Assembly (NCBI GenBank): GCA_022562855.1
Contig: JADFON010000131.1
Span: 1-5,918 of the forward strand
From: Candidatus Zhuqueibacterota bacterium
GTDB taxonomy: Bacteria > SM23-31
DNA: 5,918 bases
Reading direction: 5' to 3'
Shown here: piece by piece, positions 1 to 5,676 of the stretch
How the letters are laid out: the number at the start of each line of letters is the position of its first letter
Numbering within the stretch: position 1 is the stretch's first letter
Made by a program: the position numbers and the translations under genes
The notes under the pieces: generated by a model
The model's input: the letters and a program-made list of their open reading frames with translations, nothing else
The model's database searches: none
Told to the model about the DNA's origin: nothing

Positions 1-1568
1 GTTGTATTAGCGCTACCCATGTAAGTAACGTTCTTATCTTCAATAGCCAATCTTATTAATACATAATATTTGATCTCGTGATCCTTGATTTCAAATACTT
101 CCGGCGGTAATAAATATTTTTTCCGAATTTGTCTGTGCATAGTTTTATATATCCATCCTGAAGCTGAACCAAAAGGTATATCGTTCTCTAATTTTCCTTC
201 GATTGCCGGACTGACGATCCCCACTAACTTACCTTTAAAACCTTCAAGTCTGGTATTATATTGAACATACGAAAATATTCTTTGACTTTTTCTCAATCCA
301 TTGATGGTTTCTCTCAGATAAGGAATAAACTTTGGATTTCCGGTCGTACCACTTGTTAAATTATAAATGACCGGTTTTTCATAGTTGATTACAAAATCGC
401 CCGTTTTCATTTGTTTTTCAAAGTATGGTCGGAGGTCTTCAAAATCGTGAACAGGGACTAATTCCTTAAAATCATCATATGTTTTGATCTTTTCAAACGA
501 ATGTTCTTTCCCAAATTCTGTATTTTTATTTTTCGCAATGATCTTTCTTAAAACCTCATCCTGGATTGTTTTCGGATCTTTTGTTTTATTTAAAAACGAT
601 TTATAACTTGTATTTTTAATATATTTCATTCTCAAACTGATAAATAAATTTCTCAAAATGTCAGATAAATTCAAGTTAGGCAGACTCTTCTTATCTATCG
701 CCCCTATAAATGGTGTTTTCATTTGAGAATTAAAATCCAATGGGTAATCTTTATTAACTAATCCGAGTTGTTCTACCAATCTATTATTTGGAAAAAAAAA
801 TGTCCCAAACAATATATCCCATATTATGATGTTATTCCCATAATTTGAGTTTGATTCGCTGGATGCACGAGAGTGATGCCACCTATGCACCTCGGCGCTG
901 CTTATGATATAGTTCAGGAATCCGAACTTCAGTTCTATGTTACAATGTTGAAAAAACCCGTTAACGGCATAAAACACAAAGTAAAGAGCTAATACCTCCG
1001 GTTTGATTCCAATAATTATGAATGGAAGCGCATCAAACAAGAATTGAAGTCCCTTGTCAAAAGGATGAAATCTTCCAACATTCAACCAATACAACTTTTT
1101 AGGTGAATGGTGAACTGCATGAAGTTTCCAAAGTGGTTTTGTTTCGTGCAAAACCCTGTGAAGCCAATATCTGAAAAAATCTGCTATGAGGATCATTAAA
1201 ATTGCTTGAACACCGATATTTATATCATGTGGCCAATAATTTTGAAATTTTAATCCCGAACTGGCGGCAAAATTAATTAAAAGAATTGAAAAGAAAAATG
1301 TTAATGCTCGTGGAATTACCATTTGAACGAAAAGCATAAACAGCAGATCATTTTTTACATCGTTTTTGTTAGCGGTCCATTTTTCTTCGTGAGGATGGAA
1401 TAATTCAAGAAAGGTTACGAAACCGGCGCCTATTAATACGGGAATATAGGTATAAATAAAAACGGAAATCCCGGAGTTTTTCAAAACAAGAAACAACGCT
1501 ATACAAGATGCCATTACTACGGGATATGCTGACCATGACAAGGAATTTCTTAATACCGTAGAATTCAT
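1..1568 (-). CDS. Fatty acid hydroxylase/sterol desaturase - GH3 acyl-adenylase fusion (3' end beyond window)
   Basis: I translated the minus strand from ATG 1568; the frame is open for 522 codons to the left edge. Residues ~1-115 carry hydrophobic membrane segments. Residues ~120-287 are a membrane di-iron oxygenase domain of the sterol desaturase/fatty acid hydroxylase superfamily with all histidine boxes: HRVLH (H137, H141), HAVHH (H150, H153, H154) and HRWHH (H228, H231, H232), then the typical closing motif WDILFGTFFFP (250-260). From ~315 it continues as a GH3 domain: FGKEHSF near 355, VPVHDFEDLRPY, the ATP-binding TSGTTGNPKFIP (from T405), and PFGSASGWIYK. GH3 enzymes adenylate carboxylates and pass them to amines; the desaturase part oxidises C-H bonds of membrane lipids. 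Bacterial GH3 proteins are usually stand-alone, about 500 residues, so roughly 300 residues probably lie off the edge. The start directly follows the upstream stop codon. Substrate unknown; domain calls are firm, joint function is inference. Confidence 0.9.
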   Translation of the reverse strand, partial: MNSTVLRNSLSWSAYPVVMASCIALFLVLKNSGISVFIYTYIPVLIGAGFVTFLELFHPHEEKWTANKNDVKNDLLFMLFVQMVIPRALTFFFSILLINFAASSGLKFQNYWPHDINIGVQAILMILIADFFRYWLHRVLHETKPLWKLHAVHHSPKKLYWLNVGRFHPFDKGLQFLFDALPFIIIGIKPEVLALYFVFYAVNGFFQHCNIELKFGFLNYIISSAEVHRWHHSRASSESNSNYGNNIIIWDILFGTFFFPNNRLVEQLGLVNKDYPLDFNSQMKTPFIGAIDKKSLPNLNLSDILRNLFISLRMKYIKNTSYKSFLNKTKDPKTIQDEVLRKIIAKNKNTEFGKEHSFEKIKTYDDFKELVPVHDFEDLRPYFEKQMKTGDFVINYEKPVIYNLTSGTTGNPKFIPYLRETINGLRKSQRIFSYVQYNTRLEGFKGKLVGIVSPAIEGKLENDIPFGSASGWIYKTMHRQIRKKYLLPPEVFEIKDHEIKYYVLIRLAIEDKNVTYMGSANT

Positions 1569-1994
1569 TTATTGTTCGTTGTCTTTCACATATACAAAGC
1601 CACATAATATCAAATATGAGGCTAAAACAAAATGAAAACTTGTTGTAAGATAATTTACAAAGAATCTTGCTTCGCTAAGACCCATTAAACCAATTATTAA
1701 TCGCCCGATCATCATTATAAAGTAAATCGTACCAATAATAATAATAATTTTTCCCCTCTTGATATTTTGAAGTATATCATTTTTTCCAAATTTAATTGAA
1801 AATCTGAACATAGCAAGGATAATAATTAATTGCAATACTAATAGTAATTCATACGGCATTGAACCGCTGTGCCATGATTCAAAGGGCGGCAAAAATGAAA
1901 GCTCTTTAAATTTTGTGGTGATTTGTGCAAACACTCTAAAACAAAACAATGAAATTAAAATCCATTGAACTATTAAGATAGATTTTTTATTCAT
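1569..1994 (-). CDS. Small four-helix membrane protein of unknown function
   Basis: This is a 141-residue protein starting at ATG 1994 (MNKKSILIV). An in-frame TTG at 2003 would add three residues, but ATG is preferred because the TTG has no better upstream signal. Hydrophobic segments lie at about 6-23, 47-66, 82-104 and 115-135, so it is an inner-membrane protein with probably four helices. Between the first two is a loop with FLPPFESWHSGSMPYE, whose Trp, His and Pro residues look like a conserved family signature, though I cannot name the family. Its TAA stop is followed without a gap by the ATG of the desaturase-GH3 gene, so the two are almost certainly co-transcribed and translationally coupled. 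That suggests an accessory role (membrane partner, electron supply or lipid handling) for the oxygenase, which is inference. It is very AT-rich like its partner and unlike the genes to the right. Confidence 0.8.
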   Translation of the reverse strand: MNKKSILIVQWILISLFCFRVFAQITTKFKELSFLPPFESWHSGSMPYELLLVLQLIIILAMFRFSIKFGKNDILQNIKRGKIIIIIGTIYFIMMIGRLIIGLMGLSEARFFVNYLTTSFHFVLASYLILCGFVYVKDNEQ

Positions 1995-1999
1995 GATTT

Positions 2000-2013
2000 T
2001 CAATCCGTCAATC
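2000..2013 (-). repeat. Tandem 6-base direct repeat just upstream of the membrane protein start
   Basis: The minus strand reads GATTGACGGATTGA, two copies of GATTGA separated by CG, ending six bases before ATG 1994. It sits where ribosome binding would be expected, and the GGA inside it is the only Shine-Dalgarno-like stretch near this start. It could be a short regulatory site or chance in an AT-rich gap. Confidence 0.3.
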
Positions 2014-2147: not shown

Positions 2148-3917
2148 TCAGGCAGTTGATGCTTCTTTGGCTGGTTTGTTTTTTGGGGATTTGGTGAGTG
2201 TGGTCCAGTTCTTTTTCAGGTCCCTGATAAAATCTTTCTGGTCGTGGATTATCTGCGCGGTGGAGCCTTCTTTGAGGTTTAGGATGGTGTCGGTGATGGA
2301 GAAGAATTTTTCGAGTACCGGGTGGTCGGAGTTGAAAACGACATACGGCATACCGTAATTCGAGATATTCCTCAGCGCTTTTTCTTCCGGGATGTTGCCG
2401 AGATAGGTGAGGTCCATGGAAAAAGATTTGGACACGCGCCGGACAAGGTCTTCTGCTATAGCGCCGGCTTCTTCTTCATCGGCTTTATTGATGATCAAAC
2501 CGAACAGCGATGTTTTCAGCAGATCTTTAAGACTGCAGGCGTATGAATCGAATTGATGGATGGTTTTTTCTATGGTAGTATACGTGCGGTACATACTGCT
2601 ATTTCCGGATAACGACTTTTTACGATTTGACTGAGCTTCTTGCGGACTATTTTTCCCATTCCCGCTGAACAATAACTCGAAAACTCTTTGCTTGATAGCC
2701 GGTAATTCTTCTTTTATGTGCTCTATTGTCAGGTTTCCGTTTGCGGTTTCCGGTATATCAAGTTCATGCATAAAAGGAAGGACAGTCTCGCCGTAGAAAT
2801 CTTTGATCTTGTCAAATGTATTTTTCGATTTATCGATGTTTTTCAATTCTTCGAGCATGTTCTCAATCGTGTACCCCGTCCGGTGACAATTCCGGAATTT
2901 CTCAGCGGCGTCTAAGGCTTTGCCCGAAGATTTGAATCTCTTTTTCATCGGGAAATACAGCAGGCTGAGAATGAGGTTAAACACCGCCTCTACCGACGCC
3001 CTGTCGGGATTGATGACATATACTTTGCTCTTGATGCTGCTCAGAAAATCGAGAGTGTCTTTATCCGAACCCCCGCCAAAATCCGCAAGTTTCACGTGGG
3101 CGTCCGAATTATGCAGCATATACAATATCTCATTCTTCTTCCGGTAATACATCGAATTTGATTTCCGCACCGGGCTGGATGAAATGAAATTGAGACTTTC
3201 CAATGGCGTAATCTGCCGCAAGAGGTCCCATTTGAATGTATCAGGATCTTGATAGAAAATATCTTCAAGATAATGTTGAGGTTCGATTCCAAGCAAGAGC
3301 CGCTGGTCGGGTTTTCCGAAATCGAGATCGATGAGTTCGACAAGCTGGGGTTCGCTTTCCTGATGATTCCCAATATACCGGGTGATGAGCGAAACGATGA
3401 CGGCGATATTGTTTACCACAAGAGTTTTACCGGTTCCGCCTTTTGTCGAAGCAAACGCGATAAGATCGATTCCCCGGTTCGTGTTCATTCCATCAAGAAA
3501 TTCCTGGAAAATGGTATCCCTGGCTTTCACATTGGGACCGTTTTTCGTTGCAGGACTCTGACGGTCATATTTTTTTTTACTGAAATATTCGTTTCGTTCG
3601 CCTTCGGATTTTATTTCACTTCGAATCGTTAGAAACTGGATGGCTTTTTCCCGGTCTACGCTTTTGAGTTGCATTACAAGGTCGATAACATCGCCGCAAA
3701 CATCCGGGCAGACCCAGCATTTAAACGTATTACGCATTACATTGAACGTTAACGATGGAGCGCCGTTCTGCTCGACATGGTTTTCCAGCTTTATGCACGG
3801 AATGACGTTTTTGCTGACGATTAAACCGAATTCGCGCGCCACATCGATAATGCTGGTTGTCTTGAGGATTTTATCTACATCGAAGGCGCTGCCGGGATTG
3901 GGGATAATTTTACCCAT
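2148..3917 (-). CDS. CHC2 (DnaG-type) zinc finger fused to a MinD/ParA-like ATPase
   Basis: This is a 589-residue protein from ATG 3917 to TGA 2148; a longer frame from TTG 3986 is rejected because that TTG is the -35 box. Residues ~10-100 resemble the DnaG zinc-binding domain: a helix around SIIDVAREFGL, candidate ligands C41, H47, C67 and C70 (C-x5-H, then CWVC), APSL and GDVIDLVM after the second pair. Residues ~150-560 are a MinD/ParA-type NTPase: deviant Walker A STKGGTGKT (signature K159, P-loop K164), IDLD at 197-199, Walker B-like LADFGGG (D279), VINPDRASVEAV near 301, and GLIINKADEE (N477). Residues ~328-468 are a polar, helix-rich insertion. There is no signal peptide or membrane segment, so it is cytoplasmic. 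Such ATPases dimerise on ATP and position or regulate DNA, flagella or other complexes; the zinc finger suggests nucleic-acid or partner binding. It is probably monocistronic, with its own promoter. Exact role unknown. Confidence 0.9.
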   Translation of the reverse strand: MGKIIPNPGSAFDVDKILKTTSIIDVAREFGLIVSKNVIPCIKLENHVEQNGAPSLTFNVMRNTFKCWVCPDVCGDVIDLVMQLKSVDREKAIQFLTIRSEIKSEGERNEYFSKKKYDRQSPATKNGPNVKARDTIFQEFLDGMNTNRGIDLIAFASTKGGTGKTLVVNNIAVIVSLITRYIGNHQESEPQLVELIDLDFGKPDQRLLLGIEPQHYLEDIFYQDPDTFKWDLLRQITPLESLNFISSSPVRKSNSMYYRKKNEILYMLHNSDAHVKLADFGGGSDKDTLDFLSSIKSKVYVINPDRASVEAVFNLILSLLYFPMKKRFKSSGKALDAAEKFRNCHRTGYTIENMLEELKNIDKSKNTFDKIKDFYGETVLPFMHELDIPETANGNLTIEHIKEELPAIKQRVFELLFSGNGKNSPQEAQSNRKKSLSGNSSMYRTYTTIEKTIHQFDSYACSLKDLLKTSLFGLIINKADEEEAGAIAEDLVRRVSKSFSMDLTYLGNIPEEKALRNISNYGMPYVVFNSDHPVLEKFFSITDTILNLKEGSTAQIIHDQKDFIRDLKKNWTTLTKSPKNKPAKEASTA

Positions 3918-3957
3918 AAGAGAAGTACGTTTGTGAGGTGATTTGAAGCTATAGGAA

Positions 3958-3986
3958 AATATAAAAAAAAAGATAAGTCTTGTCAA
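3958..3986 (-). promoter_or_regulatory. Near-consensus sigma70-type promoter for the zinc finger-MinD gene
   Basis: The minus strand shows TTGACA (3986-3981), a 17-base spacer containing a run of T, and TATATT (3963-3958). That is a perfect -35, ideal spacing and five of six -10 bases. Transcription would begin near 3951, leaving a 5' leader of about 34 bases before ATG 3917, with no Shine-Dalgarno sequence in it. Confidence 0.65.
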
Positions 3987-4090: not shown

Positions 4091-4105
4091 TCCCGCTAAG
4101 CGGGA
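4091..4105 (-). terminator. Small GC-rich hairpin overlapping the hyuB stop codon
   Basis: TCCCGC (4091-4096) and GCGGGA (4100-4105) pair perfectly around a three-base loop, and the TAG stop of hyuB (4098-4096) lies in the loop and stem edge. On the minus strand it is followed by TATTGTATTG rather than a clean run of T, so it is at best a weak intrinsic terminator. It may instead protect the 3' end of the message. Confidence 0.35.
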
Positions 4106-5676
4106 CCGTATCCGCCTCCCCCCGGTGTTCTCAAGGTAAATACATCCCCCTTCTTAACGGATATATTGAATTTGGACGGGAGTTTGATCTTTTTCCCATT
4201 TTTTATAATGAAATTTTCACCGGTTTTACCGGAAGAACCTCCGTGAAGTCCGTATGGGGCATGCTTTCTGCGGTCGGAGAGAAGGCAGAGATTCGATTCG
4301 GTAAGGAATTCAAAACTTTTTTCGGTTCCGTCACCCCCTTTAAATTTACCTTTGCCTCCGGATCCTCTTCTGAAACCATATTTTTTCAGTCTTACCGGGA
4401 GTTGGTTTTCGAGCACTTCAACCGGCGAATTCATCGAATTTGTCATATGTGTATGAATCCCGTCAATCCCGTCTCTGTCGGGTCGGGCGCCCATCCCGCA
4501 TGCTACCGTTTCATAATAAGCGAACGGCTCCCCGGTGTCCGGGTGAATACCGCCAAATGTCATATTATTCATTGTGCCGCCCGAAGCCGCAGGGATCCTA
4601 TCCGGCATCGCTCCGGAAAGTGCGCCGTAAAGAACGTCAACTATTCTTTGAGAAGTTTCCACATTTCCGCCCGCTACCGCCGCCGGTCTCACGGCATTGA
4701 CGATCAATCCTTCAGGGGCGATAACCTTTAACGGAACCATACAGCCGTAATTGGATGGGATGGAATAATTGACCAGGGTTCTGAATACATAGAATACTGC
4801 TGACAGCGTAATTGCGTATACAGCATTAATCGGTCCCAGTGTTTGTGGGCCGCTTTCAGAAAAATCTATAACGGCATTTGTCCCATTTACCGTAATGGTA
4901 ACGGCTATCTTCACGGGATTATCTGAGAAACCGTCATCATCCATATAATCGGTAAACGAATAAGTCCCGTTTGGAATCCCCTTAATAAGAGCGCGGACCA
5001 TCCTCTCCGAATAATCCTGCAGCTCCTCCATATACCTGAAGACTTCAGCCTTGCCATTTTCTTTTACAATATCGAGAAGACGCATTTCGCCGACTCGTGC
5101 CGCCATATATTGCGCAAGCAGGTCGCCTTCGCGTTCATCGGGAGTACGGACATTCGCCAGCAGGACTTTCATAAATGATCGATCGATTTTGAAATTCTCT
5201 TCAAACTTGACCGGGGGAATTATAAAACCTTCCTGGTAGATTTCACGCGAAAGGGGCATCGAACCCGGAGTCATCCCGCCAATGTCCGAATGGTGAGCGC
5301 GGTTAGCCGTATAAAACGAAGGTGTGCGTTCTTTTGCCAGGAATACCGGACGGACAAGCGTTATATCCGGCAGATGCGTGCCGCCGTTAAACGGGTCGTT
5401 CAAAATCACCGTATCGCCCCTGTTCATCGTAACGTTCTTGATGGCGCTTTCCACAGACAAGGGCATAGAGCCGAGATGGACCGGCATATGTTCTCCCTGG
5501 GCAATCATCTTTCCGGCGCCGTCGAAGACCGCACATGAAAAATCAACACGCTCCTTTATATTCGGCGAAAACGAAGTTCTCTGAAGAGCGGCGCCCATCT
5601 CCTCCGCCACCGAAAAAAAACGGTTCTTGTAGATTTCCAGTTTTATCGGATCAAATTTTTTTGTCTGTTTTTTCAT
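4096..5676 (-). CDS. hyuB: Hydantoinase B/oxoprolinase family protein (HyuB-like)
   Basis: This is a complete 526-residue protein, the usual length for a stand-alone HyuB. The family supplies the beta subunit of ATP-dependent N-methylhydantoinases/5-oxoprolinases, which open cyclic imides and lactams; relatives are acetone and acetophenone carboxylase subunits. Family motifs run the whole length: NDPFNGGTHLPD (93-104), ANRAHHSDIGGMTPGSMP (124-141), EGFIIPP (149-155), DEREGDLLAQYMAARVGE (180-197), AGGNVETSQR (335-344), ASGGTMNNMTFGG (364-376), ETVACGMGARPDRDGIDGIH (389-408), LLSDRRKHAPYGLHGG (465-480) and the glycine-rich tail TPGGGGYGPA. The acid and histidine residues in the first two motifs are the likely metal/active-site region. 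It is cytoplasmic, with no signal peptide. The start is ATG 5676 (MKKQTKKFDP); no better upstream start or ribosome site is seen. HyuA, its normal ATP-binding partner, is not in the 242 bases upstream nor downstream, so the substrate cannot be inferred from context. Confidence 0.95.
   Translation of the reverse strand: MKKQTKKFDPIKLEIYKNRFFSVAEEMGAALQRTSFSPNIKERVDFSCAVFDGAGKMIAQGEHMPVHLGSMPLSVESAIKNVTMNRGDTVILNDPFNGGTHLPDITLVRPVFLAKERTPSFYTANRAHHSDIGGMTPGSMPLSREIYQEGFIIPPVKFEENFKIDRSFMKVLLANVRTPDEREGDLLAQYMAARVGEMRLLDIVKENGKAEVFRYMEELQDYSERMVRALIKGIPNGTYSFTDYMDDDGFSDNPVKIAVTITVNGTNAVIDFSESGPQTLGPINAVYAITLSAVFYVFRTLVNYSIPSNYGCMVPLKVIAPEGLIVNAVRPAAVAGGNVETSQRIVDVLYGALSGAMPDRIPAASGGTMNNMTFGGIHPDTGEPFAYYETVACGMGARPDRDGIDGIHTHMTNSMNSPVEVLENQLPVRLKKYGFRRGSGGKGKFKGGDGTEKSFEFLTESNLCLLSDRRKHAPYGLHGGSSGKTGENFIIKNGKKIKLPSKFNISVKKGDVFTLRTPGGGGYGPA

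Follow-up and report, generated by a model that had tools for sequence, protein, structure and literature searches.

Genomic locus of a hydroxylase-GH3 fusion protein and its place in a multi-phylum gene module

The fused gene and its neighbors

The window analyzed here is an entire contig of 5918 bases (G000:C137) from a fragmented metagenome-type bin. Its minus strand carries an uninterrupted open reading frame (3..1568) that begins with an ATG at position 1568, encodes 522 aa and runs off the contig edge at base 3. The product is a fused hydroxylase-GH3 protein that is truncated by the contig end. An FA_hydroxylase domain (OlsE-like di-iron hydroxylase) occupies residues 123-256 (801..1202, minus strand) and is matched by Pfam PF04116 and by the NCBIfam OlsE model. 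The Pfam match reaches 110 bits against a cut-off of 31 and spans profile positions 2-132 of 132, hence the whole domain. Histidine boxes 1 and 2 (H137xxxH141 and H150xxHH154; 1107..1160, minus strand) are invariant in 54/54 rows of the alignment of relatives, box 3 (H228xxHH232; 873..887, minus strand) in 55/55 rows. The above-cut-off profile match and the histidine boxes place the protein in the FA_hydroxylase superfamily.

The remainder of the frame holds the N-terminal two thirds of a GH3 acyl-adenylase/amido synthetase domain (6..602, minus strand; residues 323-521). PF03321 matches with 144 bits, far above its curated cut-off, over profile positions 3-204 of 304. The nucleotide-binding motif I, TSGTTG, was read from the sequence at residues 405-410 (339..356, minus strand). 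T405, S406, G407 and K413 are invariant (55/55 rows), and the histidine boxes and TSGTTG are invariant or nearly so across 53-55 relatives. Because the contig ends there, the GH3 part is limited to the N region and motif I. An earlier note on this DNA had described a one-frame fusion of a complete hydroxylase domain, with three histidine boxes, to a GH3 domain with an intact TSGTTG. Its coordinates are correct, the motifs are as described, and the two Pfam families it had proposed searching both score far above their cut-offs.

Upstream of the fusion lies the gene for C2, a small membrane protein with four transmembrane (TM) segments (1569..2003, minus strand; 144 aa from a TTG, with an ATG at 1994). 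Its last base directly adjoins the start codon of the fusion, and it is homologous to L043:10685-11134. Two further genes are encoded on the same strand. The gene at 2148-3986 (minus strand, 612 aa) shows a DnaG-type CHC2 zinc-ribbon match at residues 74-128, just below the Pfam cut-off, followed by the P-loop of a MinD/ParA-type ATPase. The gene at 4096-5676 (minus strand), upstream of the module, encodes a complete hydantoinase B/oxoprolinase-type subunit (693 bits to PF02538).

Full-length relatives and authenticity of the fused frame

The source genome is a 2.5 Mb assembly of 491 contigs, about 80% complete, and a search of it found the missing GH3 end on no other contig. A search of 386 genomes spread over bacteria identified the same fusion at full length in Calditrichota (L043:8110-10680, G195:C7). 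This protein of 856 aa is 63% identical to the window protein over residues 4-521 and comprises FA_hydroxylase, GH3, GH3_M and GH3_C domains. It has the N, M and C regions and motifs I-III of the GH3 family, and the motifs are kept in 49-55 rows of the alignment. The earlier note had suggested extending the contig leftward to judge the completeness of GH3; the contig ends within that domain, and the full-length homologue has all three GH3 sub-domains. A second contig, labeled Caldithrix (L059), is 95% identical to the G195 contig. In this Caldithrix sp., C2 and the fusion are closely preceded by a second GH3 gene and a second hydroxylase gene (L059:5911-8498, plus strand).

A fused frame that stops at a contig edge in a bin of 491 fragments could be a sequencing or binning artifact. 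This explanation was rejected and is scarcely credible. The fused frame is present in 23 loci, including the window and one locus from a 98% complete genome, and because these loci are independent, a frameshift or chimera is excluded; a frameshift between the domains was among the grounds for refutation named in the earlier note. Moreover, the neighboring gene at 2148-3986 is inherited vertically. Of the five other genomes of the class, three have a full-length orthologue (44-51% identity) and a fourth has a partial one (50%); therefore, the contig is correctly placed in the class and is no stray. The hydroxylase-GH3 fusion itself was not found in these five genomes (63-90% complete), and it was probably either gained laterally by the source organism or lost in its kin.

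Distribution of fused and split gene pairs

To the window and the G195 locus, a scan of 84,980 species genomes with the hydroxylase peptides NGFFQHC and NNIIIWD added 58 loci, mostly from metagenome bins according to the record labels. Of the resulting 60 loci with a hydroxylase, 56 (window included) also hold GH3, 23 of them in one frame and 33 as adjacent genes. The split genes mostly abut or overlap. Where the neighborhood could be judged, GH3 is adjacent or fused to the hydroxylase in 56/59 loci; the three others, two from Methylotenera (L104, L105) and one from Polyangiaceae (L108), have intact flanks and keep a homologous hydroxylase without GH3. One fused frame is broken inside GH3 (L052:1729-4296, plus strand), where 483 aa are followed, after 9 bases, by 368 aa; this is an assembly error or a decaying copy.

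According to the record labels, carriers span about 14 phyla: Calditrichota, Bacteroidota, Gemmatimonadota, Latescibacterota, Verrucomicrobiota, Pseudomonadota, Acidobacteriota, Myxococcota, Bdellovibrionota, SAR324, Poribacteria, Nitrospinota, Nitrospirota and Planctomycetota. In the hydroxylase tree, the pair switches between the fused and the split state several times, far fewer than at random. Rather than the invention of a single organism, the fusion represents one arrangement of two genes that are kept adjacent over about 14 phyla. It is also not required, since 33 loci have split genes.

The module around the gene pair

The gene pair belongs to a module that consists of the 4-TM protein, the hydroxylase, GH3, an enolase-superfamily enzyme and sometimes a CocE/NonD hydrolase; hydroxylase, GH3 and enolase form its core. 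In all 50 loci whose contig continues (50/50), GH3 is directly followed by an enolase-superfamily gene (about 370 codons) that usually abuts or overlaps the GH3 end. The six GH3 loci without this gene, among them the window, end at GH3. As the scan used hydroxylase peptides only, the association with the enolase gene is not built into the sampling. The operon's enolase gene was not seen in the source genome (80% complete), where the only superfamily member is 23% identical and located on a different contig. Its absence from the assembly is expected if it lies beyond the contig end.

C2 sequences were found in 33 loci, about half of the total, often encoded beside the hydroxylase on its upstream side. 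C2 has no Pfam or NCBIfam match and no sequence relative in the PDB. Its AlphaFold model shows four helices (pLDDT 90). A Foldseek search with this fold returned nothing at E 0.001 or better, and a second structure aligner gave human VKOR as its best match (121 residues, Z 7.2); for a helical bundle such as C2, this may be due to chance. C2 is fused to the hydroxylase in three loci (L086, L106 and L063), the last of which is a triple fusion C2-hydroxylase-GH3 of 1030 aa (L063:7491-10583, plus strand). In six others, it forms the N-terminal part of a fusion with a CocE/NonD-type (Peptidase_S15) hydrolase (L051:790-2898, L056:5811-7010, L057:11696-13957, L060:3318-5501, L070:11694-13955 and L075:5186-7471; coordinates without strand). 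A CocE/NonD-type alpha/beta-hydrolase adjoins the module in nine loci. The fusions tie four protein families, including C2, to one pathway, and the divergences of hydroxylase, GH3, enolase and C2 correlate pairwise (Spearman rho 0.60-0.78). Accessory genes vary by lineage. Bacteroidota have a P450 together with a CAT-like acyltransferase; an LCM-type methyltransferase and a PhyH dioxygenase also occur. A search for phage families found none.

Comparison with known enzymes

The only NCBIfam family that matches the hydroxylase at length is OlsE, a head-group hydroxylase that acts on the ornithine moiety of ornithine lipids (PMC3972451). The match to its model (NF052566) is collinear from end to end and scores 188 bits for the window protein and 195-203 bits for split relatives, above other FA_hydroxylases (82-117 bits) and below the equivalog cut-off of 475. 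By sequence, no named hydroxylase family is nearer to the window protein than OlsE, although the window protein does not belong to it. OlsE itself is defined by hydroxylation of ornithine lipid at C4 of ornithine. The two proteins share the histidine boxes and the membrane di-iron hydroxylase superfamily. In contrast to OlsE, the module hydroxylase is encoded next to GH3 and enolase genes and is often fused to GH3 or C2.

The GH3 part of the relatives is complete, with motifs I-III conserved, and about 520 residues of it align by profile with plant acyl-acid amido synthetases. The full-length fusion was modeled with a pLDDT of 89, and the model superposes on AtGH3.15 (TM 0.83-0.85 on the target, rmsd about 3, about 550 columns). 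The whole GH3 architecture, motifs I-III included, is shared with plant enzymes such as GH3.12, GH3.15 and JAR1, but identity in the structural match is about 20%, and the plant enzymes are stand-alone and soluble. Small acids, among them jasmonate and benzoates, are GH3 substrates as well; a fatty acid as the substrate in the module is therefore an assumption.

A bacterial GH3-like enzyme, OlsH of planctomycetes, has been shown to make N-acyl-ornithine (PMC12493201). OlsH and the module GH3 have the GH3 fold, the ATP-binding motifs and presumably acyl-amide ligation in common. The OlsH model (NF052613, equivalog cut-off 620) yields 46.9 bits for the truncated window protein and 102.5 for the full-length fusion, far from membership. 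Unrelated bacterial GH3s used as controls reach 100-122 bits, compared to 86-103 bits for module GH3s. Since the controls score equally or better, kinship to OlsH was rejected as an argument for ornithine as the GH3 substrate, and ornithine has no better support than other amino acids. The gene neighborhoods differ as well: OlsH is encoded with the alpha/beta-hydrolase OlsI and with OlsG (PMC12493201), the module GH3 with an enolase-superfamily gene. The main text of the same paper (PMC12493201) mentions neither a fusion nor a hydroxylase, nor an operon like the one seen here. It describes OlsF, a bifunctional ornithine-lipid synthase, which likewise joins two steps of aminolipid synthesis in one chain but consists of two acyltransferase domains, neither of which is related to the hydroxylase or to GH3. 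Among the carrier genomes searched, which are incomplete bins, the operon GH3 is the sole GH3 gene in 12/14, and the OlsB/OlsF-type acyltransferase domain PF13444 is absent from 11/15 (present in G393, G391, G388 and G195). These counts fit, without proving it, a role in place of OlsB/OlsF enzymes.

The nearest solved relatives of the enolase partner are dipeptide epimerases and 2P88 (2P88, 3JVA, 1JPM). 2P88 is known as an N-succinyl-Arg racemase, and these relatives are enzymes of N-acylated amino acids. K163, K165, D193, E219 and D244 are invariant, with the KxK motif on strand 2 and the metal ligands kept in 42-45 of 42-45 sequences. Unlike in these relatives, Arg268 takes the place of the second catalytic lysine on strand 6 in 42/42 partners (the five best PDB matches all have Lys there), and the gene always adjoins the hydroxylase-GH3 pair in the loci examined. 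Racemization in known superfamily members relies on lysines at both faces of the substrate. The partner does not have Lys on both faces, as dipeptide epimerases and N-acyl amino acid racemases do, and reaches no NCBIfam equivalog cut-off. The replacement of the strand-6 Lys by Arg speaks for a one-base reaction or an unusual role of Arg. Judged from these residues, a one-base reaction, for example the loss of a beta-hydroxyl, would be as likely as simple racemization. A search of open-licence papers found none on this Lys position.

Proposed pathway and alternative explanations

On balance, the fusion is somewhat more probably than otherwise a bifunctional enzyme of an undescribed aminolipid-type module with a core of hydroxylase, GH3 and enolase, usually accompanied by C2. 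We infer the substrates, the order of steps, the enolase reaction and a membrane lipid as the product; the mechanism is proposed because OlsH and OlsE provide precedents for both halves in one known lipid pathway. The GH3 half would adenylate a (fatty) acid and join it to an amino acid, yielding an N-acyl amino acid. With O2, the di-iron half in the membrane would then hydroxylate this product, most likely, like OlsE, in its amino-acid head. The enolase partner could abstract the alpha-proton beside the free carboxylate of the N-acyl amino acid and, in a one-base reaction, remove the beta-hydroxyl placed by the hydroxylase. The CocE/NonD alpha/beta-hydrolase, where present, may acylate or cleave the product. 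Direct delivery of the product from one active site to the other is possible. The earlier note had suggested a two-step lipid tailoring or lipo-amino-acid pathway. This stands up as an idea, but the fusion on which it was based is part of a larger module in many phyla, which could not be seen from the window because the contig ends.

The same genes could instead make a soluble natural product or signaling conjugate, with GH3 coupling an amino acid to an acid of small or medium size, followed by tailoring by the hydroxylase and enolase. Plant GH3s use small acids, and the P450 with its CAT-like acyltransferase, the LCM-type methyltransferase and the PhyH dioxygenase of some lineages resemble specialized metabolism. 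However, about 14 phyla retain the core while these accessories change, the hydroxylase sits in the membrane and most resembles a lipid hydroxylase, and the 4-TM partner and its fusions put the pathway at the membrane; a soluble product is rather unlikely. The domains might also act on unrelated substrates (e.g. in sterol/hopanoid hydroxylation and in amide ligation elsewhere), being merely co-expressed and only incidentally fused. L104, L105 and L108 have the hydroxylase without GH3, but an incidental pairing is hard to reconcile with 56/59 adjacent or fused pairs and a third enzyme in 50/50 loci. Repeated changes between the fused and the split state and the correlated divergence point to one pathway, and unrelated substrates are improbable.

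That the product is a lipid class so far unknown has a fair probability. More specifically, and as a tentative proposal, the N-acyl amino acid might be hydroxylated and then dehydrated or otherwise altered at the alpha-carbon by the Lys-to-Arg enolase, giving a lipid class new to membranes in about 14 phyla, such as N-acyl dehydroamino-acid or D-amino-acid lipids.

All component families except C2 are known. No description appears to exist of their combination, of the fusions or of the Arg substitution. A search of open-licence papers for GH3 with dipeptide epimerase, sterol desaturase or fatty acid hydroxylase returned nothing relevant and no paper on the fusion or the operon, which is no proof of absence; the earlier note, too, had named no description of the fusion. 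The Lys-to-Arg change would be a new point in the chemistry of the enolase superfamily. Carriers include nitrite and ammonia oxidizers (Nitrospinota, Nitrospirota, Nitrosomonas) and marine lineages, and so conserved a module points to a lipid or conjugate of wide occurrence, as yet unassigned by lipidomics.

A different GH3 fusion was observed at L044:7004-9562 (minus strand; G083:C159), where a RimK-type ATP-grasp ligase and a complete GH3 share one frame of 852 aa. This gene adjoins one with a histidine-kinase-like ATPase domain.
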